From: a virus | Virus record (IMG/VR): IMGVR_UViG_3300032223_000118 | Coordinates: 1-35,922 of that record | Reading direction: 5' to 3' (one strand) | DNA: 35,922 nt | In this document: piece after piece, positions 3,882 to 30,777 of the stretch | Layout of the letters: each line of letters begins with the position of its first letter | Numbering within the stretch: the first letter of the stretch is position 1 | Made by a program: the position numbers and the translations under genes | Notes under the pieces: model-generated | Told to the model about the DNA's origin: nothing | The model's input: only the letters and a program-made list of their open reading frames with translations | The model's database searches: none

Positions 3882-4487
3882 TTAACTAAACTGCTTTTCC
3901 AAATGTGCAAGTACTTTCCCCTGCTCCTCTAAGTTAGTGTTTGCAAACTCAGTAATATAGGGCATCAAATCAAAGTTTGATAATAGATTACTATATTTAG
4001 TCTCTCTACCCTTTAGGAAAGTTTCAGATTGGTCAGATCCACGATCTTTATAGCGTTGTTCTAGGATCTCTTTTGGTGCTTTTAAATAGACTACTTGTAA
4101 GTCTGTATTTGGGAGTCCCATACAAAATTCTAGGAATGACTGGTTAAAGACCCTATCACCTTCGAAAAGAATGTTACAATTATGAGAGGAGATCCATTCT
4201 TGTAGGTTGGGTTGGACAGCCATTGAAAGGCGATCAGTTCCAGCAAAGGTTTCACCATCTTCATACTTACCTAAAATGTATAGGTCTTTCTGGGTGTTAT
4301 ACATAGCAGAAACTAACTTTGCTGGTTCACCCTTAATCCATTCTTTATCTTCCATAAACTTACGGAATAAAGTTGTTTTACCAGTTCCAGGTTGCCCACC
4401 AACTGCTATAATCTTTCTAGTCTTAATAGTGTTCTTAATCAGTTGAACACTAATCTCATCTACCACACCAAATTTATCAAACATCAT
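3882..4487 (-). CDS. P-loop kinase, candidate 5-hydroxymethyl-pyrimidine DNA kinase
   Basis: The protein is 201 aa with Walker A GGQPGTGKTT (residues 30-39), a Walker-B-like strand NILFEGDRVFN (about 104-114) and an Arg-rich lid segment (ILEQRYKDRG), the layout of small P-loop kinases. Alone it could be a general nucleotide kinase. It sits two genes downstream of an ADDT homologue, the partner of phage 5-hmdU DNA kinases, and that suggests it phosphorylates hydroxymethyl-pyrimidines in DNA. It lacks a large extra helical domain. Two ATGs occur at the start (4487 and 4484), with AAGGA upstream, and the first overlaps the TGA of the preceding gene. The family call is moderate and the substrate is inferred from context. 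Confidence 0.7.
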   Translation of the reverse strand: MMFDKFGVVDEISVQLIKNTIKTRKIIAVGGQPGTGKTTLFRKFMEDKEWIKGEPAKLVSAMYNTQKDLYILGKYEDGETFAGTDRLSMAVQPNLQEWISSHNCNILFEGDRVFNQSFLEFCMGLPNTDLQVVYLKAPKEILEQRYKDRGSDQSETFLKGRETKYSNLLSNFDLMPYITEFANTNLEEQGKVLAHLEKQFS

Positions 4488-4927
4488 ACTCTTCCTTTAA
4501 GATCTTCAATCATATTCACTAACTCTTCTTTAGTGAATACCCAAACACGTCCACGATAAGAATGTGAATCCATGTCTACATCATGTTTCTTAGTGAAAGA
4601 CATCTTACGCACAAGTTCTTTCGAACACTCAAGTGTTAGTTTTTCTTTAATGTGCTGCATAAAATCTGGATCAGTATCTTTCAATGAAAGTAATTCTTGA
4701 GAAGAAACTCTATGTTCAACATAAAGTTGATTCAATTCATATTTTTCCAATAATGCATCCGTATTGTAACGAGTATTATTAATAGCACCCATGTTCGTAT
4801 TAGTACTAGTTTGAGTTATAACAGAAGGATTTGACATTATTGTATTAGGAGTTAATGTATTAGGTGATGTTGTAGTAGTCCAAATAGAAGGATTCTGCAT
4901 AGTACCCATTAATATATTATCGTTCAT
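4484..4927 (-). CDS. Hypothetical protein of the modification cluster, Thr/Asn-rich N-terminus
   Basis: The 147-aa protein is unrecognised. Residues 1-50 are low complexity, rich in Thr, Asn, Ser and Pro (TTTTSPNTLTPNT; TQTSTNTN) and probably disordered. The remaining 95 residues look folded and basic, ending in RGRVWVFTKEELVNMIEDLKGRV. It overlaps the ADDT gene and the kinase gene by ATGA junctions, so it is translationally coupled to both. An adaptor or DNA-binding subunit of the modification machinery is an idea only. Confidence 0.7.
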   Translation of the reverse strand: MNDNILMGTMQNPSIWTTTTSPNTLTPNTIMSNPSVITQTSTNTNMGAINNTRYNTDALLEKYELNQLYVEHRVSSQELLSLKDTDPDFMQHIKEKLTLECSKELVRKMSFTKKHDVDMDSHSYRGRVWVFTKEELVNMIEDLKGRV

Positions 4928-5943
4928 AAAAAATTCTCCAAGCCAGTTAAAATAATTTCTTCATCATCAAATATCCATTCAAGATTTTCTAACTTACCTG
5001 TATTTAAAAATCTTGAAAATCTTTCTTTGCTAATACCACGTTTATGGTCTAGTCTAAAATCAATTGTTTCTTCACGTGCTTGCCAAAGAACATCCCAGTC
5101 AATACCATACCAACTATCACTTTCTGCTTTAATAATCTCTTCAGCCTGACGATCTAGGTAGTAACCAAGGTAACGTCCATGGTGTTCTCTGAATAGTTTC
5201 TTAAACGAACACAAACAGGTTTCCATAGTAAAGAAGTCAATCTGTCCTGCTAAGTCAGGGAATCGTCTTTTACTTTCTTCCAGAATTTCCTTTGCATGTA
5301 CTTCGAGGTTTGAATACTCCACATCACTGAGTCTTCGATCACAATCGGATTCTTGTCCAAGGGCATAAAGAAGTCCATTGCGATGACTACGGGAACCATC
5401 ATAATCGTCCAACATGAGAGAAGTAGGATTAACAGAGATGCCAGCAGTATGTTTAAGATGCTGTAAGTAAAACCAAGTGGAATAACGACCAAATTTATGA
5501 AGGCTAGACTTAATCCCCTCCCACAGTCTATCAAAAGTGTCTTCCTCTGATGATGCATAAAAACTTTCCATCCTATCACGTTGTGTTCCGTTTCCTATAA
5601 ATTTTTGGTAAGACTCGAACATGGCTGGAAGATGACCTTTGTTCCACTTCGTGTCAGTTTGATATCGTAGTCTCTTATAGTTAGATGTATTCCATTGAGT
5701 GATTCTATCAACTGTTGCTAATTCATAATCAGGAAACTCATTCATGAGCACCCATGCAGTTTGCAATTGATATGTATTACCATAAAGCCATGCAAACCAA
5801 AGACGCTGTTCGTCATTGTGTTCATATCTCTTATTAAGATAATTAGTGCACCAAACAGCTGGATCACAGTCATCATACTTCAGTGACCATGCGTACCAGC
5901 GAATGAATGCTTCTCTACGATTTTCTTGTAAACGATAATCCAT
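4924..5943 (-). CDS. Amino:DNA transferase (ADDT) homologue
   Basis: The 339-aa N-terminus, LQENRREAFIRWYAWSLKY followed by EQRLWFAWLYGNTYQ and AWVLMNEFPD, matches the pattern I recall for the amino:DNA transferase domain of T4-like phages (xENRREVFLxFYxFHLKY, QKxWxxFxNGNTQ, FxEFPD). In thymine-hypermodifying phages this all-helical, glycosylase-related family displaces a phosphate or pyrophosphate from 5-hydroxymethyl-dU in DNA with an amine such as an amino acid or polyamine. The gene overlaps the GNAT gene by TAATG and the next gene by ATGA. The C-terminus LTGLENFL resembles the gp43 clamp-binding tail. The family call is fairly firm; the amine donor is unknown. Confidence 0.78.
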   Translation of the reverse strand: MDYRLQENRREAFIRWYAWSLKYDDCDPAVWCTNYLNKRYEHNDEQRLWFAWLYGNTYQLQTAWVLMNEFPDYELATVDRITQWNTSNYKRLRYQTDTKWNKGHLPAMFESYQKFIGNGTQRDRMESFYASSEEDTFDRLWEGIKSSLHKFGRYSTWFYLQHLKHTAGISVNPTSLMLDDYDGSRSHRNGLLYALGQESDCDRRLSDVEYSNLEVHAKEILEESKRRFPDLAGQIDFFTMETCLCSFKKLFREHHGRYLGYYLDRQAEEIIKAESDSWYGIDWDVLWQAREETIDFRLDHKRGISKERFSRFLNTGKLENLEWIFDDEEIILTGLENFL

Positions 5944-6581
5944 TATAAAAATTCTTCAAGTGATGGTTGGTTCATCAATGCATCACGTAACCAAGATTTA
6001 CCAACAGCATCAATTGCGGTTTGTGTCTTGGCTTTTTTCTTTTCACCCCACTTATATGACTCCAATCCTTCAGCCAAGAATTGAGTTCTTGCTTTATATG
6101 GTGGTAGTGCCTGAAGTGGATTCACGATTGCATTATTACGATAGGCTATTTGTTCCATTCTCGTAGGAAATAATGGTTGGTCAGATCTGAGAGAGCCAGT
6201 TGGATCGACTGCCCAGAAAATGAGACCATTTTTATTGTGCCACGTAACGGAAGATGGAGTGCATGATATTTTGAGTCTTTGGATGTTTCGTTCTTCAACT
6301 GCGTATTTAATCCAAGCATCCCAGCATTTACTTGCATATCCATTCCCTTCTTTACCTTCAAGTGTAACAATCTCATATAGATTCGCATAACCATCACGAT
6401 TGAATGTAGCGAATATTAAAGAAACAACCTCACCATTAACTTCATATGCCAGTGGTAAAGATTTTTCATAATTATGAAAACGATACCATAATGAATGTGC
6501 AGCCGATAAGAATTTTGTATTCTTACCAGCTGGACTGTCTTTAATAAGTTGTTCTACTTTTGTTGAATTAACGAATAACAT
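5943..6581 (-). CDS. GNAT-family acyltransferase of the modification cluster
   Basis: The 212-aa protein carries a GNAT core. The strand LYEIVTLEGKEGNGYASKCW (residues 68-87) includes the acyl-CoA pyrophosphate-binding loop EGKEGNGYA, and the helix and strand after it (WIKYAVEERNIQRLKISC) fit motif A. A basic C-terminal region (WGEKKKAKTQT) could contact DNA. The protein ends in NQPSLEEFL, almost the gp43 tail SLEDFFG. GNAT proteins recur in predicted phage base-hypermodification clusters, where they may acylate the amine added to the base. It overlaps the amidotransferase by 14 bases and ADDT by one. DNA as substrate is inference. Confidence 0.75.
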   Translation of the reverse strand: MLFVNSTKVEQLIKDSPAGKNTKFLSAAHSLWYRFHNYEKSLPLAYEVNGEVVSLIFATFNRDGYANLYEIVTLEGKEGNGYASKCWDAWIKYAVEERNIQRLKISCTPSSVTWHNKNGLIFWAVDPTGSLRSDQPLFPTRMEQIAYRNNAIVNPLQALPPYKARTQFLAEGLESYKWGEKKKAKTQTAIDAVGKSWLRDALMNQPSLEEFL

Positions 6582-7275
6582 CTGATTGATAATCTATTGC
6601 GTTTGGTATGTCTACTCTTTCAATTGTCAGTGCAAGGTCTCCATCAAATGTATTATAATGATTCATAAAAACATTGATGGGGAATCCTGCAACTTCAGCA
6701 CGTTTTGGAACATCTGCTGTAGAAGTAATTATACTACCACATTCGATATTTGTCAAGTATAATGGACGTTTACCATTACGATAGAAACGCAACTTACGAT
6801 CTGCATAGAGTTCGCAAACAGCCATTGATGCATCTGGGAATTCTCTCAGAGGATCATCTGAATGCAAAACTAATTCAGAGTCATTCTTAGTTTCAAATTT
6901 ATATGGATACAAGTTACTCCAATTCTCTGGAAGTTCTTGAGTAATCACACCATTGTGAACAATGGATTTTGTTTCGTTTGCTATTGGTTGATTATAAGAT
7001 AGATCGCTAGTGCTATATCTACAGTGACCAATAAGGTAAAGAGTACCATCTCCATTAACCATCTCCTTCATGTTATCAATATGCATATGTATATCAACAA
7101 ACTTATCCGCAGAAATTGCGTCTTTGATTGTTACCACTTTATCACTCCAACTTGGTAGGAAGGAGATTCCTGTCGCATGCATTCCACGAATCTTAGATTC
7201 CAAGAACACTCTGCGAAGCATTTCAAAATCCTCTTTACGAGGATTTTTTAGAACAGCACCTATAATTGCGCACAT
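6568..7275 (-). CDS. Stand-alone class II glutamine amidotransferase (Ntn hydrolase)
   Basis: The protein begins MCAIIGAV, so removal of Met exposes Cys2 as the Ntn nucleophile. The class II glutaminase signatures are all present: RGMHATG (30-36), GHCRYST (83-89), HNG (107-109) and NDSE (131-134). At 235 aa it is only the glutaminase domain; the isomerase, synthase or PRPP domain of GlmS, AsnB and PurF is missing. It should release ammonia from glutamine for a partner protein. It overlaps the TET/JBP gene by TAATG and GNAT by 14 bases. Amidation of a carboxyl group on a hypermodified base, or ammonia supply to ADDT, is a hypothesis from context. Confidence 0.9.
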   Translation of the reverse strand: MCAIIGAVLKNPRKEDFEMLRRVFLESKIRGMHATGISFLPSWSDKVVTIKDAISADKFVDIHMHIDNMKEMVNGDGTLYLIGHCRYSTSDLSYNQPIANETKSIVHNGVITQELPENWSNLYPYKFETKNDSELVLHSDDPLREFPDASMAVCELYADRKLRFYRNGKRPLYLTNIECGSIITSTADVPKRAEVAGFPINVFMNHYNTFDGDLALTIERVDIPNAIDYQSDVIR

Positions 7276-8591
7276 TATGCAAAAAACTCCTCTAGCGCAT
7301 TCTTAGTTGTAGGATGATACTTGGCAAGCATTTCCTCTCCATTCTTTTTATTACGTAAGAAGTCATACCATTCTTGTTCATCCCACATACCTGATGTTAC
7401 ACCATTCCAAAGGTGACGATCTTTATGCTCTGGATGTTCTTTATTAAGTCTACGACCTTCGACATATTCATATCTAGCATCTTCGTATTCTTTGCTACCC
7501 AACTCAAGCATTTTCTCACGGAAATAAACAACCAAAGAAATTCGTTCAGAACCTTCTGGACAAACAATTGGTGTATTGCCATGCATAACTTCGTGGTTGT
7601 TGATCAAGAGCAAGTCACCTGGACGTGGATTAACAGCAACACGATACTCTGGTGCAATCAAATACCCACCAGTATACTTACCATCGTTAGATAGTGTCAA
7701 TAGATTAGACAAACCAGCATTCAAATCACCTGCGTCATAATGTGCTGCAGTCCTGAATGTATTGTTAACAGTAACAGTTGTGAATGGAGTTTCTGGAACT
7801 AAGAATGCTGGATCAAGTTGCCTTGCAGCTTTCATCTGTGCTTCATATCGTTCTGGCAAAAACTGTTTGAATCCTTTCGCCAACTGTTGTAAGAATGGAT
7901 ATGACATTTTAAACTTATCAAAGTTGTTTGCAGTATAAGAAGTGGCACGACCATAAGGGATACGTGGGTAACGATCGAACCAACCAGCGATACCAGAAAG
8001 AACACCATTAGCATAGGTAGTTGGACAAACATACTTCTTCTGAACACGTAAAGATTCTGCATGCATTTCTACAGGAGAAAGTTTTCGTGTTGCTTCAACC
8101 CAGTCTTCAAAAACAAAATTGTCTTTCTTTACTGCTTGAATGCCCCATACATTATTTCTTGTGGATGGTTTATCTAGTTTACATTTATATTTCTCTCGAA
8201 TTGCTTCGATTGGATCTTCTCCAAGCATAGCCTTTGCTTCTTCAAAGTATTCTAGAATGGCATACTCATATTCAGTAACCCACTCACGATTACCTAATTT
8301 GTCACCACGTGGACCAGCTGCTTTACCTCTGTTCTGGGTTTCAGTTGCTGCTTCACGTAGACCAGTATATGCTTGATCCTGTTGCTCTTTAGAGAAGTAG
8401 TTCTTACGAAACTTTAAAACAATTCTCTGTTCACTATAAGGATCTCCACCATCAATTGGTGCAGGCATATAAACATCACAATCTTCTTCAATTAGAAAAT
8501 CATAGTGTGACTCATCAACGAATTTACCTTCAAGATTCAATCCATCTGGACCACAGTCAATCTTTTCTTTTGCAACGATTACTTTAACCAT
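7275..8591 (-). CDS. TET/JBP-family 2OG-Fe(II) DNA base dioxygenase
   Basis: This 438-aa protein has a C-terminal double-stranded beta-helix with all Fe(II)/2-oxoglutarate residues: H284-Y-D286 in TAAHYDAGDLNAGLSNLL, H337 in NNHEVMHGNTPI, and R350 in SERISLVVYF. The segment GGYLIAPEYRVAVNPRPGDLLL is typical of the TET/JBP group, which oxidises 5-methylcytosine or thymine in DNA to the hydroxymethyl base. The N-terminal 260 residues are basic and helical, with no recognised domain. The start has an AGGAGA Shine-Dalgarno. The gene lies 8 bases after gp41 and overlaps the amidotransferase. The C-terminus NALEEFFA resembles the polymerase tail. Thymine versus 5mC as substrate cannot be decided. 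Confidence 0.87.
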   Translation of the reverse strand: MVKVIVAKEKIDCGPDGLNLEGKFVDESHYDFLIEEDCDVYMPAPIDGGDPYSEQRIVLKFRKNYFSKEQQDQAYTGLREAATETQNRGKAAGPRGDKLGNREWVTEYEYAILEYFEEAKAMLGEDPIEAIREKYKCKLDKPSTRNNVWGIQAVKKDNFVFEDWVEATRKLSPVEMHAESLRVQKKYVCPTTYANGVLSGIAGWFDRYPRIPYGRATSYTANNFDKFKMSYPFLQQLAKGFKQFLPERYEAQMKAARQLDPAFLVPETPFTTVTVNNTFRTAAHYDAGDLNAGLSNLLTLSNDGKYTGGYLIAPEYRVAVNPRPGDLLLINNHEVMHGNTPIVCPEGSERISLVVYFREKMLELGSKEYEDARYEYVEGRRLNKEHPEHKDRHLWNGVTSGMWDEQEWYDFLRNKKNGEEMLAKYHPTTKNALEEFFA

Positions 8592-15556: not shown

Positions 15557-16125
15557 TAACTCTTTCCATACATTAACATCATAGCATCAAGCGCACAATC
15601 ATGCACAGGATGGTGTTTGATTACATTAGTTCGATTGAACAAAGGATGATCAATCTCGCAGTATCCATTCGTGGTTCCATAAAGAATATCTACAGCAGTT
15701 CGAACATCTCTCCACATAGCATATCCTGTAAGCACTTGCATATCAAGTTTGGTTGCCAATGAATCAATCGCCATTTGATCAAGAGATCCACGTGCCCACA
15801 TAGTTTGATTCTGAGCATTTGGAACCTTGTTCATATAGTTATGTAGTGTTTCAATCGCATCTTCAGCAAACATATCTTGGCTGGATGGTTTGAACGAAAC
15901 GCTATGAACATATTCGTGTTGCTTCTTCCACCACTCTAGTGTCCCAGCATCAATGGATCGTTTTAATCTTTCGATTTGATCCTTAGCATTTAACTTGACA
16001 AAGCAAGCATCGTCTAACAAGTCTTGATATGTTGGACGTTTCTCTGGATCGAAATGAATCAATGCTGCGCTAAGAACAACGCAGGTTGATTCTACACCAA
16101 GGGTTTCTACATCAAAAATAAACAT
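15556..16125 (-). CDS. dexA: DexA-like DEDDh 3'-5' exonuclease
   Basis: The 189-aa protein has the DEDDh set: FDVETLG (D5, E7), ARGSLDQMAID (D116) and HHPVHDCALDA (H175, D180). The fold and size fit the T4 DexA / RNase-T-like family, which degrades single-stranded nucleic acid 3'-5'. It overlaps both the radical SAM gene and gp43 by single-base junctions. A trimming role on DNA ends or host nucleic-acid salvage is expected from the family. The name DexA is by motif and context; overall identity cannot be judged by eye. Confidence 0.85.
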   Translation of the reverse strand: MFIFDVETLGVESTCVVLSAALIHFDPEKRPTYQDLLDDACFVKLNAKDQIERLKRSIDAGTLEWWKKQHEYVHSVSFKPSSQDMFAEDAIETLHNYMNKVPNAQNQTMWARGSLDQMAIDSLATKLDMQVLTGYAMWRDVRTAVDILYGTTNGYCEIDHPLFNRTNVIKHHPVHDCALDAMMLMYGKS

Positions 16126-17630
16126 TATATTGCTCCAACCATAGTTTTATATTGTAAAATCTTCTCAGCATTTAGTTTTGGAATATCATAATGCTTCATC
16201 AGATCAAATTGATTATACCTCAGAATATCTTCCAAGGCAACTCCAAGACTCAAGTATGAAATCATTTGAAAGTCTGCAATGTAAGTTGTAGGCAACATGG
16301 ATCTATTGAAAGAGTTTGCAATGTCAGTGCAAATTCTGTAATCTAAATTTTGTTCTTTATGAACCCATCCATACTCATCGAAAGAGTACCCATAGATTTC
16401 TGGATTCAATGAGAACTCAGATTGATATGGGTTTGCAGACTTGTTCTTGTCTGTCATAAAGAGAGCATTGAATGAAGTATTCTGTGCAGGATAATCTGGA
16501 CTGTGGACATAGTCCCAAAGTTCTTGGAAATACTTTTCATCGTCGTATGGTAATCCAAAGATGAATGCAGTTCCAATGTTAACTTTATTTTTCCATTTAT
16601 CTCTAACCCACTTCAGTCTTTCTTTAACTCTCTCTGGATGTAATCCTTTGCCGATAGCCTTACCACTTTTATGGTTTAATGTTTCTATACCAAAGAAGTT
16701 ACCAACCAATCCTGCTTCAAGAAGCAAGTCTGCCTGATGTGGAAACCTATCGATTAAATCTAAACGAAGGAAGCAAGAGAATTTTGGTTTGAAAGGTAGT
16801 GATGTAAACAGTTTATGGAATTCTTCCATCTTGTCATTGTCATCATTGAATGTATCATCAGTGATATAAAAATGCTCAGTGCCTCTAGTTTCCCAGAGTT
16901 TTAACATTTCATCACGGACTTCTTCCATGTCTCTGATGTAAGTACCCTTTTTCTTTCCCAGCAGTGGATAAGAACAAAACTTACATTTAAAGATACAACC
17001 ACGAGCAAACTCTAATGGAACACCTTCTCCTGGAAGTAGGTTCACATTATCGTCATACCAAAATGTTTGAAGAGTATCCATTGCTGGCTCTGGATATTTA
17101 CCAGAGTCGATAACAATAGTCTTTGAACCATTGATATATTTTTCTTCACAGTGTTCTATTTTATCTTTCTTACCTGCCAGATAGTGCGTTAGGTCTACTG
17201 TTGACACATCGCCATAACCAACTATGTAATAATCTACTTCTGGATCTGCTTGAGAAATTAAAGAGAACGCACCACCAAAAACAATCTTGGCTTTACTGTT
17301 TGCTCTAACATAATCATAGATTGTAGTTATCTGTCTGTATGGTGTAGACTGATACAACTTTTCTACAGGAGACAGAGGCGATCCATCATTCTTTCTCAAA
17401 ATAAAAAATGATGATGAATACCCTAGCCATAGGGTATCCTTAGTTAAGACTTTTGAGATTGCGTTGATGATCTCTTCAGTACTCATGTACTGAATGTAGT
17501 CAATAACAACGGCATCATATCCCTGCTTCTTTAGTTCTGAAGCAACTCTATATGCACCGAGTCCTCGCTGGACTCTGGCTAGGTGGTCTGGGCGATATTC
17601 TGTTCCACTTAGAATTATAACATCAGCCAA
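16125..17630 (-). CDS. Radical SAM protein with N-terminal B12-binding-like domain, TTG start
   Basis: The 501-aa protein has an N-terminal Rossmann-like half (DVIILSGTEYRPDHLARVQRGLGAYRVA, then KIVFGGAFS and DYYIVGYGD, about 110-142) typical of B12-binding-like domains. The radical SAM cluster motif C212-IFK-C216-KF-C219 follows and FYITDDTF-type strands of the TIM barrel come next. It would cleave S-adenosylmethionine reductively with a 4Fe-4S cluster. The start is TTG at 17630, immediately after the upstream TAA, with only a weak GAGAGA site. It is coupled to dexA and gp43. The substrate is unknown; radical SAM enzymes recur in predicted base-modification clusters, and DNA is possible. Confidence 0.87.
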   Translation of the reverse strand: MADVIILSGTEYRPDHLARVQRGLGAYRVASELKKQGYDAVVIDYIQYMSTEEIINAISKVLTKDTLWLGYSSSFFILRKNDGSPLSPVEKLYQSTPYRQITTIYDYVRANSKAKIVFGGAFSLISQADPEVDYYIVGYGDVSTVDLTHYLAGKKDKIEHCEEKYINGSKTIVIDSGKYPEPAMDTLQTFWYDDNVNLLPGEGVPLEFARGCIFKCKFCSYPLLGKKKGTYIRDMEEVRDEMLKLWETRGTEHFYITDDTFNDDNDKMEEFHKLFTSLPFKPKFSCFLRLDLIDRFPHQADLLLEAGLVGNFFGIETLNHKSGKAIGKGLHPERVKERLKWVRDKWKNKVNIGTAFIFGLPYDDEKYFQELWDYVHSPDYPAQNTSFNALFMTDKNKSANPYQSEFSLNPEIYGYSFDEYGWVHKEQNLDYRICTDIANSFNRSMLPTTYIADFQMISYLSLGVALEDILRYNQFDLMKHYDIPKLNAEKILQYKTMVGAI

Positions 17631-23530: not shown

Positions 23531-23698
23531 TTATTCAGCAGTTGCTTCTGCAGTCGCTTCAGCAGTTGCTACAGTTGCTTGTGGGTCACCTTGTTGTTTA
23601 ATCTTTACGATTAAGTTCGCAACTTCCTCGAAAGGGTGTTTACCCAAGCATGCAAGAATAGTGTTTACTTCATTAATTTCAAGTTCAAGTTTAATCAT
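23531..23698 (-). CDS. Small conserved phage protein, 55 aa, with Ala/Thr/Glu tail repeats
   Basis: The 55-aa frame MIKLELEINEVNTILACLGKHPFEEVANLIVKIKQQ resembles short phage proteins with the pattern LxEVNxILxxLGxxPFxEVxxLIxKI. The C-terminus is a tandem ATAEATAE repeat encoded by GCTTCAGCAGTTGC-like DNA (plus strand). The ATG overlaps the TGA of regA (ATGA). The DNA repeat may vary by slippage. Function unknown. Confidence 0.72.
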   Translation of the reverse strand: MIKLELEINEVNTILACLGKHPFEEVANLIVKIKQQGDPQATVATAEATAEATAE

Positions 23699-24114
23699 TT
23701 TGATTTTTTTCCTATGTTATATTTCGGTACTAGTTCCCATTGATCTTTCTCTTTAAAAGAGACGACCTTAATTTGCGACAAAGATGCTTTTTGCTCTGCC
23801 TGCGTATTATTTAGTATCTTTAATAGATCCCAATCTTGAAGCAAACCAGCAATAGCATTTCTGCGCTCGATATCACCACTAGTGATATTCGATTCTTTAC
23901 CATCCAAAGCAAATAGCTCTTTAAAATGGACAATAAAATATCTACCCTGCTTATGTAAGATGTGGCAGGATTGATATAATTTTTGTTCTTTTCTGGACGC
24001 AATACCAATGCGAGTTAGAGTTTCACGAACCTTTAGGAAGTTATCTGGTTCATGCAATGTCACCTCAAGCATCGACTCTGGTTTCCAGTCATAATAAATC
24101 ATTTCGACTGTCAT
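23695..24114 (-). CDS. regA: Translational repressor RegA
   Basis: The sequence MLEVTLHEPDNFLKVRETLTRIGIA (from Met15), LYQSCHILHKQGRYFIVHFKEL and KEKDQWELVPKYNIG is close to T4 RegA in every block. T4 RegA binds start regions of many early mRNAs (including those of gp44, gp45 and its own) and blocks translation. The ATG at 24114 overlaps the gp62 TGA and has an AAGGTGG site, giving 139 aa with 14 residues more than T4 at the N-terminus; Met15 (24072) is an alternative. The order gp44-gp62-regA is as in T4, but gp43 is elsewhere. Confidence 0.93.
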   Translation of the reverse strand: MTVEMIYYDWKPESMLEVTLHEPDNFLKVRETLTRIGIASRKEQKLYQSCHILHKQGRYFIVHFKELFALDGKESNITSGDIERRNAIAGLLQDWDLLKILNNTQAEQKASLSQIKVVSFKEKDQWELVPKYNIGKKSK

Positions 24115-24491
24115 GGTTTTCCACCTTTGTATAATTTTTCTTTTATCATAGTCAAGTCTTGTTCGCTTAAGATGCTTAATGCTTCTTTAGCCTTCTCACT
24201 TGAATACCCATAATACTCTTTAACGAGTTCGATAGATGCAGTATCTGCGTCTTTTTTAGACCATTTACTGAATCGTTTCTTCTTCGAAATAATATTTAGG
24301 AAATAAGAAAATTGCTGGTCTTTATCTAAATCGGGATGTTTATTCATCTCGTTAGCGTAAAGAACAGTATCTGGAAAATACGAAAGTCCTCTATTTACAA
24401 TGAATGGTTTATAATCTTTAGTAGCCTGTGGATCCTCAAATAAATTCTTCTTTGTGTCGTTTATTGCATTTATGAAATCAAACGGACTCAT
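24111..24491 (-). CDS. 62: Clamp loader small subunit gp62
   Basis: The 126-aa protein is shorter than T4 gp62 (187 aa) but keeps its blocks: DFINAINDTKKN, KPFIVNRGLSYFPDTVLYANEMN, FSYFLNIISKKKRFSKWSKK and ELVKEYY. These match the T4 pattern with NxxLSxFPE-type, YLM-type and RxxKWxK segments. With gp44 it opens and loads the gp45 clamp. The position between the membrane-protein gene and regA supports it. The reduced length is in the N- and C-terminal parts. Confidence 0.85.
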   Translation of the reverse strand: MSPFDFINAINDTKKNLFEDPQATKDYKPFIVNRGLSYFPDTVLYANEMNKHPDLDKDQQFSYFLNIISKKKRFSKWSKKDADTASIELVKEYYGYSSEKAKEALSILSEQDLTMIKEKLYKGGKP

Positions 24492-24816
24492 GTTTAAAAC
24501 CCCAACCTATATCCTTTAGATTTTCGGTCTTTGCAATGAATCGTTTTCCAGGAAATCTATTTGCAAGAGATTGTTCTAATTCTAGCCTGTCGTTTCCTTG
24601 ACCCATAAATTCGTTATCGTTACCGTATACATAAAACACATTGTTGTGTTTTTCTATGACAATGTTAATATATGAGTCATCATGCGGTTGTTTCAGTTCA
24701 GACTCTAGATCCGTAAGAATGTCTTCAACATGTTTCTTGGCAGATCTCTCTCTGGCACCCCATCCATAGACAGCACCTAATATAAAAACTAATGTTATCC
24801 AAATAAAATGTTCCAT
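24478..24816 (-). CDS. Small membrane-anchored protein inserted between gp44 and gp62
   Basis: The ATG at 24816 with GAGG five bases upstream gives 112 aa; an extension to 24843 would overlap gp44. MEHFIWITLVFILGAVYGWG (residues 1-20) is one N-terminal membrane segment, followed by a charged soluble part (RERSAKKHVEDILTDLESELKQ) and a small domain (INIVIEKHNNVFYVYGNDNEFMGQG). It probably faces the cytoplasm. No family is recognised. T4 has no gene at this place. It may link the clamp loader mRNA or the fork to the membrane, but this is a guess. Confidence 0.7.
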   Translation of the reverse strand: MEHFIWITLVFILGAVYGWGARERSAKKHVEDILTDLESELKQPHDDSYINIVIEKHNNVFYVYGNDNEFMGQGNDRLELEQSLANRFPGKRFIAKTENLKDIGWGFKHESV

Positions 24817-24823
24817 AGCATCC

Positions 24824-25777
24824 TCATTTAAATTTACACTCAACCATAATTTCGGTGAGTGCTGCCATTATATTTAGTTCGTGATCAGCTACAAATGCTC
24901 CCTGATACTGATACTTAGCCAAAATTAAAACGAGTGCTGGAATGCTATCTTGAACCATGAATGAAACAGAATTATCATAAAGTTCTCTAAACAATCCAGT
25001 TGTATCTGAATCAGAATTCTTACCAACCCACTTACGTGCATTAGTGAAGTCCTTTTCTTTAAGAAATTTGATTAGATCTTTATATGATTCTTGGCTGACA
25101 TTAACTAAGATACCAGAATCAATCTTACCAGAAACGGAGTATCGTTGGAGTTCATTTAACATCCTACGATAATCTGGGAAGTGTTTTGTGATAAGTTCTG
25201 CAACTACCTTAGGATCAAACTCGATGTTCTCTTTCTTAAGAATCTGAGTTGCACGTTTAAAGAAAGTTGCTGCAAGTTCTTGTTTATCTTTAGGATCAAT
25301 TTTAAAGTCGATAACTGAACAACGACTATGAAGTGGTTCAATGATACGATTTTTATAATTACACGTGAAGATGAAACGACAGTTGTTACTAAATTCCTCA
25401 ATGAATGAACGCAGTGCTGGTTGAACAGTATCTGCTTTCATATAGTCTGCTTCATCGATAATGACTACCTTCTTCGCATTAGTCAGCGAAACAGTAGTTG
25501 CAAAACCAGTGATGGCAACTCTGAGAGTTTCCAATAAACGACCCTCATCGGATCCATTGATCATTAGATATTCAGCACCAACTTCGTTACAAAGTGCTTT
25601 TGCTACAGTAGTTTTACCTACACCTGCAGTTCCAGAGAACAAAAATGTAGGAAGTTCGCCTTTAGAAATATACTCTTTAAAAGTATTTTTTAGTGACTCA
25701 GGAAGTACACATTCATCAATAGTCTGTGGGCGATACTTTTCTACCCAGAGAAACTGGTCATCACGAGATTCAATCAT
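24824..25777 (-). CDS. 44: Clamp loader large subunit gp44 (AAA+)
   Basis: The 317-aa protein (T4: 319) has WVEKYRPQTIDECVLP at the N-terminus, Walker A SGTAGVGKTT (48-57), Walker B VVIIDEADYM (about 105-114), the sensor 1 FTCNYKNRII and the arginine-finger block LHSRCSVIDF. Four gp44 subunits plus one gp62 form the ATP-driven clamp loader. The start MIESRDDQFLWVEKYRPQ follows the 108-aa gene by one base. RegA probably represses its translation, as in T4. Confidence 0.95.
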   Translation of the reverse strand: MIESRDDQFLWVEKYRPQTIDECVLPESLKNTFKEYISKGELPTFLFSGTAGVGKTTVAKALCNEVGAEYLMINGSDEGRLLETLRVAITGFATTVSLTNAKKVVIIDEADYMKADTVQPALRSFIEEFSNNCRFIFTCNYKNRIIEPLHSRCSVIDFKIDPKDKQELAATFFKRATQILKKENIEFDPKVVAELITKHFPDYRRMLNELQRYSVSGKIDSGILVNVSQESYKDLIKFLKEKDFTNARKWVGKNSDSDTTGLFRELYDNSVSFMVQDSIPALVLILAKYQYQGAFVADHELNIMAALTEIMVECKFK

Positions 25778-25778
25778 A

Positions 25779-26105
25779 TCAAAGTTCCGCTGTAAAGTTA
25801 TGGAGGTTTGCTCTAGTCAAAAGGTCAGTCAATTCGTAGTTCGAAACGAATCTTCCATGAAGTTTATTATTCTTTTCTTTTTGGATATAAAGACGTGTAG
25901 TCATATTGCGAAAGTCACTATCTTTTAGAAGATGTGATGCGATATGTTGTCGTTCAGATTTAACATAACAGTCATTTCGAAGCACGTGTCTCCAGACAGT
26001 CTTTGCATCTGGTTCGTCATCGCTGACTAAGTCTTCTACCCAAAGTGTTTGATACATCCACTCATTGTTTAGCGTGGGTGTTAAATCAGTTCCTTCATGT
26101 TTCAT
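25779..26105 (-). CDS. Hypothetical protein between halogenase and gp44, 108 aa
   Basis: The 108-aa protein starts at 26105 with GAAGGAA upstream. It is unrecognised: MKHEGTDLTPTLNNEWMYQTLWVEDLVSDD is acidic, then a helical basic part follows (RQHIASHLLKDSDFRNMTTRLYIQKEKNNKLHGRF) and LTDLLTRANLHNF ends it. No catalytic motif. It is separated by one base from gp44 and 20 bases from the halogenase, so they are probably cotranscribed. It could be a helix-rich adaptor; function unknown. Confidence 0.68.
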   Translation of the reverse strand: MKHEGTDLTPTLNNEWMYQTLWVEDLVSDDEPDAKTVWRHVLRNDCYVKSERQHIASHLLKDSDFRNMTTRLYIQKEKNNKLHGRFVSNYELTDLLTRANLHNFTAEL

Positions 26106-26125: not shown

Positions 26126-27604
26126 TTACCTATCAAGTTTCACTACAATCCTATTTTGTTCTAATAAAACCTTATGCTCCATATAAGATCCTCTTTGAAC
26201 ATTATCTAGATATTCATTATACATTGACTGCATAATGTTATAACAATTATCACCAGTAGTTTCAGCTAATGTTTTTCTAATATAATCTTCATCATAAAGT
26301 TTTAGTCCGTGCATTACTTGTGCCCAGTTAGCTGCTTGGAACATATTAGAGTCACTAACGAAATACATTTGCAATGGTAATGTTTTCTTAAAATTTTCTA
26401 GATGCTGTTCTATGAAATCTGTTTTAACCATCATGGTTGGAAGTTCTTTCCAAAATGGTGAATCATTACGTTTTGTTATGTAATGCAATTGCACAAAGTC
26501 TACGATGTTATCGAAACATTTAATAAATTTAGTGTTGTATGCATCTTCTGCTTTTTTCTTATCAAGATCCCAAAGTGGAATCAATTTAACCAAACCGAAT
26601 GCTTGCAATATTGTATTACCAATACTAGATGCTTCTAATGGTTCTACAAAAGATGCAGATAGTCCCACAGAGATACAATTGTTAACCCAGAATTTGTCGA
26701 CACGTCCAGCATCAAATTTAATATCTTTTGCTACCTGAACTTTTTCCGAATATACTGACTGAATTTCATCATGGGCTTTAGTAGAATCAATAAAGTCATC
26801 ACAGAACACATAACCATTACCATACCTTTCTTGTGTAGAAATTCTCCAGTTCCAACCAGATGATAGTGCACGTGAAAGAGTATAAGGTTTTAGATCAGAT
26901 ACATCATCTGTTGGGAATGCCAATGCATGATTCATTGGAAGATATTTTTTATATGATACCCATTTAACATCTTGTTTAGATGAAAGGACTCTTTTGAAGC
27001 CAGTACTATCAATAAAAATATCTGCAAAATGTTTATTACCAGTATCATCTAAAACAGATTCTATATCTCCATTTTCTTTTAAAGACAAATCAACGATAGT
27101 TGCATCAATAACAGAAATGTTCTTTTCAGAACAAATTGTTTTAAGGAAATTATTTAATTTGAATGTATTAAAATGATATTGATTTGTTGCCATCAACCCA
27201 TCACGTTGAGAAACTAAATTAGTGTCTACTAAAACATCTTGGGTTTTTATACCACTCACAACTAATGACTTAATGAAAAGCATTCGTTGTGTTGGGTCAG
27301 ATTGGTACTCAGTCCAGAATGGGTCAGATAAAGAATGGAAATAAGATTCTCCATCTCCATTCCAGTTCTCAAACTTAATACCTTTTTTCATAGCACCATC
27401 TGTTTCTCTAACTGCTCTTAGAGAATTAATGCCACAATAATCTACAAACATTTTCCAATGTTCAGTTGAACCTTCACCAACACCGATTATTCCTATCTTA
27501 CCAGATTGAATAACCTCAATGTTATATTCAGGGTATCCCTGTTTTAGAATTAGAGCAGTAACTAACCCAGCTGTACCTGCACCAACAATTTTAATCGTTC
27601 TCAT
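26126..27604 (-). CDS. FAD-dependent tryptophan-halogenase-like protein
   Basis: The ATG at 27604 with AAGGA upstream gives 492 aa. The N-terminal Rossmann motif is VGAGTAG (7-13), followed by GVGEGST (41-47, the flavin halogenase GxGEAT-type loop), GAMKKGIKFENW with Lys73 at the place of PrnA Lys79, GWNWRISTQERYG (250-262, GWxWxIP-like, with Ser for Pro) and FVEPLEASSIG (319-329, catalytic Glu). All key halogenase residues appear kept. The family chlorinates, brominates or iodinates indoles and related aromatics using FADH2. Such genes exist in marine T4-like phages. It lies between gp45 and gp44 and its stop-start region overlaps nothing. The substrate is unknown. Confidence 0.85.
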   Translation of the reverse strand: MRTIKIVGAGTAGLVTALILKQGYPEYNIEVIQSGKIGIIGVGEGSTEHWKMFVDYCGINSLRAVRETDGAMKKGIKFENWNGDGESYFHSLSDPFWTEYQSDPTQRMLFIKSLVVSGIKTQDVLVDTNLVSQRDGLMATNQYHFNTFKLNNFLKTICSEKNISVIDATIVDLSLKENGDIESVLDDTGNKHFADIFIDSTGFKRVLSSKQDVKWVSYKKYLPMNHALAFPTDDVSDLKPYTLSRALSSGWNWRISTQERYGNGYVFCDDFIDSTKAHDEIQSVYSEKVQVAKDIKFDAGRVDKFWVNNCISVGLSASFVEPLEASSIGNTILQAFGLVKLIPLWDLDKKKAEDAYNTKFIKCFDNIVDFVQLHYITKRNDSPFWKELPTMMVKTDFIEQHLENFKKTLPLQMYFVSDSNMFQAANWAQVMHGLKLYDEDYIRKTLAETTGDNCYNIMQSMYNEYLDNVQRGSYMEHKVLLEQNRIVVKLDR

Positions 27605-27611
27605 CGTATCC

Positions 27612-28268
27612 TTAGAAATCGAATGAAGAATCTGCCTCAACTGCTACATAATAAACCAAGTCACCTGTACCTTTAAAACGAGAGATTTTTTTACTAGAAA
27701 TACTGACAGTGTAATCTCCTGGAAGCATTTTTAGATTCTCTACTTTCAAATTAACTTTGAATGTTTTATCTGTAGTTCCTACATTAGAACTATAAGAATT
27801 TCCTGTGGCATTCTTCTTGTCACCAACAACAACTGTAATGTTAGAGCCATCACCAACGATTGAGACATCGGCTGAACGTAAAACAGAAGCAGTCTTCTGA
27901 ATCATATTTAGCATGCCTGCAGACATCGTGAATTCAATCTCATGTGTTGGGAATGTAATTTCCTTGGAAGGTGCAGTAAGGACACTTGCTTCTGCAGCAA
28001 AATACTTAATGCTGTTTCCACCTTCTTTGATGGTCACATACTTATCAGTAAATGTCAATTCAGGATCTTCGAACAAAGACATCGCACCTAGAAACTCATT
28101 GAGATCATAGATTCCAAAGTCAGGGAATGATTCAGTAACAACTGCATCAGCCATTACATTCTTTTGAGCCGAAATAGTGGCTAATTTATTACCAGACTTC
28201 AAAAGCAAATTGCTGTTAATACCAGCAAAGTTCTTAATCAATCCTACTGTTTCTTTAGATAATTTCAT
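27612..28268 (-). CDS. 45: Sliding clamp gp45
   Basis: The 218-aa protein (T4: 228) begins MKLSKETVGLIKNFAGINSNLLLKSG, matching T4 gp45, and ends VYYVAVEADSSFDF, again T4-like. The middle has IYDLNEFLGAMSL. It forms a trimeric ring that holds gp43, and in T4 it also activates late transcription with gp55 and gp33. It is the first gene after a perfect sigma70 promoter. The gene is followed after 7 bases by the halogenase, not directly by gp44 as in T4. It is the natural partner of the C-terminal LExF[FL] tails in gp43 and in three modification enzymes. Confidence 0.95.
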   Translation of the reverse strand: MKLSKETVGLIKNFAGINSNLLLKSGNKLATISAQKNVMADAVVTESFPDFGIYDLNEFLGAMSLFEDPELTFTDKYVTIKEGGNSIKYFAAEASVLTAPSKEITFPTHEIEFTMSAGMLNMIQKTASVLRSADVSIVGDGSNITVVVGDKKNATGNSYSSNVGTTDKTFKVNLKVENLKMLPGDYTVSISSKKISRFKGTGDLVYYVAVEADSSFDF

Positions 28269-28296: not shown

Positions 28297-28325
28297 ATTA
28301 TAATTCAAAACGACCTATTTGTCAA
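28297..28325 (-). promoter_or_regulatory. Consensus sigma70 promoter for gp45
   Basis: Minus strand: -35 TTGACA (28320-28325), 17-base spacer, -10 TATAAT (28297-28302), both perfect matches, 29 bases upstream of the gp45 ATG. The -35 overlaps the stop codon region of the pyrophosphohydrolase gene. It should be the strongest early promoter of the window. Confidence 0.8.
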
Positions 28326-29589: not shown

Positions 29590-30738
29590 TTAAAATGGAA
29601 CCTCATCTGACACAGGCACTTCTGGTGTTATAACCTGTGCTTCAGTTGCAGGATTAGAAACCTTGTCGAACAAGTCCAAGAATGCAGTCTTCGTTGCAGC
29701 GTCAAAACGATTGCAGCAAAGTTCTACTGCTTTCTCACGCTTCTTAAAGATTGCAAACGCACGCACAATGTGGATCATACGACGAGTAGTGATCGTCTCA
29801 TCCACACCACCATCAGCAAAGGTACGACGGATTGCATCAGCCCACTTCACCAATGTCTCTGCGAATTCTACATCTTTGCATGAGTAGAAGTCCATCAGAT
29901 TCTCAATAATCTTTTGCTCAGTCTTAGCATTAGGATAATCCTGTTCAAATGTAACAGCAAATCTCTCCAAGAATGCTTCGTTCAAGACGTTAGTACCAAT
30001 TTAACGACCATCGTCTGAACCTTTACCCTTAGTGTTTGCAGTGGCAAGCACATTGAAACCTTCTTTTGGAACAATCATCTCATTCTTCAATTTGAAGTAA
30101 TAAGGTTTACCCTCAAGAATCGGTTGCAAACACAACAGAGTATTTGCAGAGCCAGCATCAATTTCGTCAAGCAACAAAGTTGTACCATTGCGCATAGCGA
30201 TAAGCACTGGACCTTCGACAATCTGGACGTTACCATCTTCAAGAGTCTTAGTGCCGATGAGTTGTTCTTCATCAGTCATCATGTTGAGGTTAACACGAAT
30301 CAAAGGACGTTTGTACTTCGCACAAATTTGTTCAACCATCGTTGACTTGCCATTCCCAGTTGGACCAGAAATAAATGCAGGGTAGAAAATACCAGCTTTG
30401 ATAATCGTTTCCACATCAGAATAATTACCAAATGGAACAAAGTTTGGATCCTTCTTGGGGATCAATGAGTCAGTATTAGTGTAATCCACCTTAAATGATT
30501 CCTCAACAACAGGTTTCAGTGCGGTGTTTCCATCAACTGATGTACCACCATCAATTGCATACAAACCACGACCAACTTTATTCTTCATAAGCCAGAGTGG
30601 ATACTTCTCAGTACCGATTGCATCCATCACAGAGATCAACTCAGGACGACTTACTTGCCCACGAGTTGCAACATCAGGATACATTTCCAGTAGTTTAGTT
30701 TCAAAAGACTCACGAAAAGCCACATCAGATTTTGCCAT
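29590..30738 (-). pseudogene. MoxR/CobS-like AAA+ ATPase interrupted by an in-frame TAA
   Basis: From the ATG at 30738 (GGAG upstream) the frame runs 245 codons, through the YPLWLMKNKVGRGLY block (46-60), Walker A SGPTGNGKST (124-133), Walker B TLLLDEIDAG and sensor 1 ATANTKGKGSDDGR, to TAA at 30001-30003. The same frame stays open for 137 more codons: IGTNVLNEAFLERF (arginine finger region) and the helical lid. Related CobS-like phage proteins read GRF/YIGTNVLNEAF without a break. No ATG or ribosome site exists after the stop; the TTG at 29985 is a poor start. The C-terminal part keeps its sequence, so the change is recent, suppressed by readthrough, or a sequencing error. Confidence 0.75.
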
Positions 30739-30777
30739 CACATTCTCCATAATAAAAACAACCAATCAATATAATGA

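Follow-up and report, generated by a model that had tools for sequence, protein, structure and literature searches.

What is a halogenase gene doing inside the replication operon of a T4-like phage, and on which kind of molecule would its product act? Enzymes of this kind put chlorine, bromine, or iodine on ring-shaped molecules, and the gene looks complete. It lies in the window, by which we mean the whole stretch of 35,922 nt analysed here (IMG/VR record IMGVR_UViG_3300032223_000118, from a T4-like virus of bacteria). We consider it reasonably probable that the gene encodes an active halogenase, made early from the gp45 operon, that acts on a small indole-type or phenolic substrate rather than free tryptophan and serves as optional auxiliary cargo. 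The operon comprises the following features:

28297..28325, minus strand: promoter-like TTGACA-N17-TATAAT upstream of gp45, 12/12 consensus match
27612..28268, minus strand: gp45 sliding clamp, 218 aa (PF09116, E 2.5e-10; phrog_223, E 1.5e-70)
26126..27604, minus strand: flavin-dependent halogenase (FDH), 492 aa (PF04820, E 3.7e-95; PrnA alignment; model and fold match)
25779..26105, minus strand: 108-aa ORF, the second insert between gp45 and gp44, without a Pfam or PHROG match
24824..25777, minus strand: gp44 clamp-loader large subunit, 317 aa (Gp44_lid, AAA; phrog_168, E 1.2e-125)
24478..24843, minus strand: 121-aa ORF between gp44 and gp62, without a family match but conserved in the lineage
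24111..24491, minus strand: gp62 clamp-loader small subunit, 126 aa (PF16790, phrog_225)
23695..24114, minus strand: RegA translational repressor, 139 aa (PF01818, phrog_242)

The preliminary description of this DNA had placed a halogenase at 26126-27604, between the sliding clamp and its loader, and the exact coordinates, the Pfam and PHROG matches, and the flanking gp45 and gp44 bear this out. It had also stated that the halogenase breaks the gp45-gp44 order; this is correct, but the 108-aa ORF, which went unmentioned, also lies between the two genes. This ORF was kept in the same place, at 77-83% identity, in contigs L027, L028, L029, and L040. A PADLOC defence search with the halogenase and the 108-aa and 121-aa ORFs gave no match. 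The halogenase is the second cistron, with 7 nt between the gp45 stop and its own ATG at 27604; the reading frame ends at 26126. A mechanical ORF list gave an earlier start, TTG at 27640, but we took the ATG because it is preceded by a TAAGGA ribosome site, which overlaps the gp45 stop codon.

Several lines of evidence identified the gene product as a member of the halogenase family. The Pfam Trp_halogenase match covered residues 4-441 and was far past the cut-off, the PHROGs match was to phrog_2928, "tryptophan halogenase" (E 1.1e-100), and sequence search matched 30 halogenase sequences of known structure, with PrnA as the best. The AlphaFold model (pLDDT 90.8) matched FDH crystal structures across ~465 residues with Z scores of 35.8-43.5 (VIA; SttH 43.5, BrvH 41.2, PrnA 40.9, MibH 38.5, VirX1 35.8). 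Within the lineage, the gene is under purifying selection, with dN/dS of 0.06-0.17 (0.066 for L028-L029 and 0.109 for L031-L036; the remaining pairs are less reliable because of high dS). Because homology is full length, the model agrees with crystal structures, and dN/dS is low, the assignment goes far beyond chance, and the window gene is a real phage halogenase that is probably active.

The GxGxxG dinucleotide motif was present as GAGTAG at residues 8-13, and Lys73 and Glu324 aligned with PrnA Lys79 and Glu346, in agreement with the earlier statement that the catalytic Lys and Glu are kept. Across the alignment, the Lys was found in 168/168 rows and the Glu in 161/168. In FVEPLEASSIG, the F, P, S, and G occur in the order of the Fx.Px.Sx.G tunnel motif, with a fit of spacing that varies with the reading of the motif. 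The WxWxIP motif is thought to hold the substrate away from the flavin. In its place, the window halogenase has GWNWRIS at residues 250-256 (GWNWRIST with the residue that follows), in which W, W, and I are retained and P is replaced by S, as previously described. The idea that this IS pair is a special variation of the active site was weakened, however, since IS is present in 12 of the 14 lineage sequences and IP in the remaining two, and the pair reads SP, IN, or AP in other phage paralogues. Outside the lineage, IP was the most frequent pair (82/154), followed by IN and SP (27/154 each). We therefore rejected IS as a unique active-site change and regard it as a lineage-level trait, with other variants common elsewhere.

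Motifs associated with tryptophan binding were missing. In groups A and B, the Trp4 motif (YYxxF..EF..NFW or YYHG..PYS) holds tryptophan, and the Trp1 motif reads AT[IVF][PS].. (PMC8269204). In the alignment, the window halogenase lacks the Trp4 motif, with SDSNMFQAANWAQVMHGLKLY at 417-437, and also lacks the AT[IVF][PS] of Trp1, where STEHW stands. Among group C enzymes, MHal2 to MHal4, which are without Trp4, halogenated indole and not tryptophan; of those tested, three out of four were active on indole and none out of four on tryptophan, and the lanthipeptide Trp halogenase MibH is assigned to the same group (PMC8269204). By these criteria, the window halogenase resembles group C, a motif-only likeness in which the substrate group is extrapolated from bacterial enzymes of about 23-28% identity. 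Because Trp4 is absent, "tryptophan halogenase" is a poor name for this enzyme, and because its motifs place it with non-tryptophan enzymes, our first guess is a small molecule of indole or phenolic type. The likeliest substrate would be an indole-type compound or some other small, electron-rich aromatic.

The position of the gene was fixed within the lineage and variable beyond it. Scanning IMG/VR with the window protein alone returned two relatives, and a profile returned more than 500. Each of the 16 IMG/VR contigs that encode an enzyme of 58-70% identity had the gp45-halogenase-gp44 order, and the lineage halogenases formed one well-supported clade in the tree (100/100). We then considered contigs anchored on RegA at an identity of at least 88% that show both gp45 and gp44 (n = 18 among the matches listed); among these listed matches, three carried the halogenase, 12 had a gap no longer than 130 bases, and three had other inserts. 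In other phages, known as isolates, halogenase homologues stood in diverse places. P-SSM2 has one adjoining an NAD synthetase gene, and HTVC008M has one that separates the small terminase from the large. The S-H38 homologue lies near endonuclease V, and those of Syn1 and S-PM2 are accompanied by tRNAs and hli genes. In S-B64 the homologue follows a recombination endonuclease, and in S-SRM01 it stands among tail fibre genes. The gp45-gp44 slot itself was occupied by other cargo in S-SCSM1, Bellamy, and P-HM1, and it was empty or nearly so in HTVC008M and S-SZBM1. Contig L033 carried the halogenase and a further ORF that resembles, at its start, the only insert of L139; this likeness points to a modular slot. 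Outside the window lineage, the clamp-slot halogenase is, judging from these gene orders, optional cargo. The preliminary description had held that a cargo gene of variable position in a related lineage would speak against its reading; we found variability between lineages but a fixed place within the lineage of the window. Photo_RC (psbA/psbD) was absent from lineage contigs and from relatives up to 174 kb and present in P-SSM2, Syn1, and G014; a cyanobacterium as host is thus unsupported.

Upstream sequence suggests that expression of the halogenase accompanies that of the clamp. The gp45 promoter, of sigma-70-type consensus, lies ~30 bases ahead of the gp45 ATG, and nearly all lineage contigs have a copy with at least 10/12 matches at a similar distance from gp45. 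The minus strand of the window contains five perfect copies of TTGACA-N17-TATAAT (6728, 10186, 19363, 28297, 35186) plus a near copy, with none on the plus strand; the chance expectation is 0.72 matches, and none of the shuffles gave as many as six. No hairpin was found in halogenase carriers between gp45 and the halogenase, nor between the halogenase and the next gene. In empty-slot near relatives, 9 out of 11 had, in the gp45-gp44 interval, a compact inverted repeat that ends in a T-rich tail (L137, L140, L142-L145, L147, L148, L181; stem of 7-9 bp, loop often TATAAT), with shuffle z-scores of -0.8 to -3.4 for five of these repeats. Since carriers are without the hairpin and most of these empty slots have the repeat, it seems that a terminator-like element gave way to the insert, which became part of the clamp transcript. 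Early synthesis from a replication transcript, as proposed from gene position in the preliminary description, fits the consensus promoter kept in most of the lineage and stands as a sequence-based expectation; halogenase expression is probably tied to the clamp by this strong promoter.

Taken together, we propose that the gp45 operon would supply the halogenase at an early stage of infection. Reduced FAD, which we assume comes from a host reductase, would react with O2 and a halide; the hypohalous acid so formed would reach Lys73 and, with the help of Glu324, halogenate an electron-rich aromatic molecule. Rather than free tryptophan, this substrate may be a small molecule of indole or phenolic type, and the site in the clamp operon may provide shared expression, with the gene standing outside the replisome and the DNA-modification pathway; these last two steps are less certain.

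Other readings of the enzyme were weighed against this one. The serine in WxWxIP, which we count against our own explanation, might allow a flavoprotein without halogenation, either a monooxygenase or an inactive relic, and its presence in most lineage sequences is in keeping with such a function. WxWxIP is generally conserved in FDHs and suggested to prevent monooxygenation, but FDHs without it exist (PMC8407142). With the catalytic Lys and Glu kept under strong purifying selection, and two lineage members having IP and otherwise unchanged motifs, we regard a non-halogenating flavoprotein as distinctly unlikely. Halogenation of free tryptophan in the manner of PrnA, with a product directed against rival microbes or phages, is favored by the database names, by PrnA being the top sequence match, and by a suggestion cited in PMC2984593 and PMC9964418. 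The absence of Trp4 and the STEHW segment at the Trp1 position make it very unlikely. The same missing free-tryptophan motif would accommodate a Trp or Tyr residue in a host or virion peptide or protein, the function of which would be changed by halogenation, as would the fold match to MibH, a group C enzyme, and the proximity of halogenase arrays in other phages to tail sheath stabiliser and 2OG-Fe(II) oxygenase-like genes. However, no partner peptide was identified and virion genes do not adjoin the halogenase in the lineage, so we consider such a target unlikely.

A base or base side chain of DNA, halogenated as a hypermodification step, had also been put forward as a target, and it was worth testing because the window codes for a probable DNA-hypermodification set (3882-8591 and 16125-17630), which includes a GATase (glutamine amidotransferase), a GNAT (acetyltransferase), and the following:

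3882-4487: P-loop nucleotide kinase
4924-5943: ADDT amino acid:DNA transferase
7275-8591: Tet_JBP
16125-17630: radical SAM protein

In the light of established phage pyrimidine hypermodification, this set suggests a modified base. Those lineage contigs that extend sufficiently far downstream have Tet_JBP (the window, G002, G005, G006, G007, and G010), and ADDT was found in four further lineage contigs. However, the halogenase block lies ~17 kb from the hypermodification genes, and the two did not keep constant company. Trp_halogenase was unmatched in G020 (174 kb, RegA 95%), G025, and G028, contigs that are perhaps incomplete and that all have Tet_JBP; Caulobacter phage Cr30 has Tet_JBP and ADDT kin and was not among the halogenase matches listed. 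Conversely, P-SSM2, S-H38, HTVC008M, Syn10, and others have a halogenase but no ADDT and no Tet_JBP above the cut-off. As each occurs without the other, though some of the records are perhaps incomplete, we ruled out that the halogenase is required for hypermodification, and the case for a base side chain is weakened to the point of being highly improbable. Co-occurrence in the lineage is explained by shared descent. A literature search linking halogenases with phage DNA modification returned nothing relevant. We find scarcely credible a reading in which hypermodified DNA of the phage itself is the target, so that virions would contain halogenated nucleobases, with the halogenase as an optional last step that is absent in some relatives of the lineage.

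Compared with known systems, the window halogenase is ordinary in kind, as viral halogenases, including phage FDHs and VirX1, are already known. The family has been reported in cyanophage genomes since at least 2010 (PMC2984593; PMC3037559), and a halogenase was found in 20 out of 153 cyanophages (PMC10452541). The PrnA family of T4-like cyanophages (T4-GC 212, phrog_2928; S-SCSM2R, S-H38, P-SSM2) is the same family at 38-42% identity, with the same catalytic residues and a similar GSTEH segment, but it differs in genome position and in having IP where the window enzyme has IS, and its phages are without ADDT and without Tet_JBP above the cut-off, both of which the window has. VirX1 (cyanophage Syn10, PDB 6qgm), an iodinating viral halogenase, matched in fold (Z 35.8) at 24% identity; a Syn10 halogenase, either VirX1 or one from the other of two Syn10 halogenase places, fell on a different branch of the tree from the window enzyme. 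VirX1 is a viral FDH with a broad aromatic scope (PMC8407142). Among bacterial enzymes, the indole-type group C members BrvH and Xcc4156 share the lack of Trp4 and the fold (Z 41-42) at about 25% identity, but their Trp1 reads ATIPTI or ATIPSL rather than STEHW. PrnA, a tryptophan 7-halogenase, shares the fold, GxGxxG, and the Lys79 and Glu346 equivalents at 28% identity, but has the Trp4 motif and IP.

The new detail, which we did not find described, is the fixed place in the lineage behind a strong early-type clamp promoter. VirX1 has been studied in vitro, and for the question of what phage halogenases do, this lineage offers a clean test, with near relatives that have or are without the halogenase at one site and with expression that is probably tied to the clamp. 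It also calls for caution with the name "tryptophan halogenase" and with linking the gene to DNA modification.

We note some further observations. A CobS-like gene of the window (29590-30765, minus strand) has one in-frame stop (DDGR*IGTN), either a sequencing error or real, and is a single open frame in the relative L009. Contig L145, which is without a gp45-gp44 halogenase, encodes a different 400-aa Trp_halogenase-like protein between gp62 and RegA (L145:6776-7900), and halogenase homologues follow gp43 in L049 and L081. Among the viral contigs L041-L105, 55 out of 65 had two to four head-to-tail halogenase paralogues of distinct classes (for example, L044:8505-14514, L099:7301-13962, and L091:8448-13031), and G011 and G013 had five paralogues each. 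Neighbours of the L091 array were 2OG-Fe(II) oxygenase-like genes, DUF6445, and the gp15 tail sheath stabiliser.
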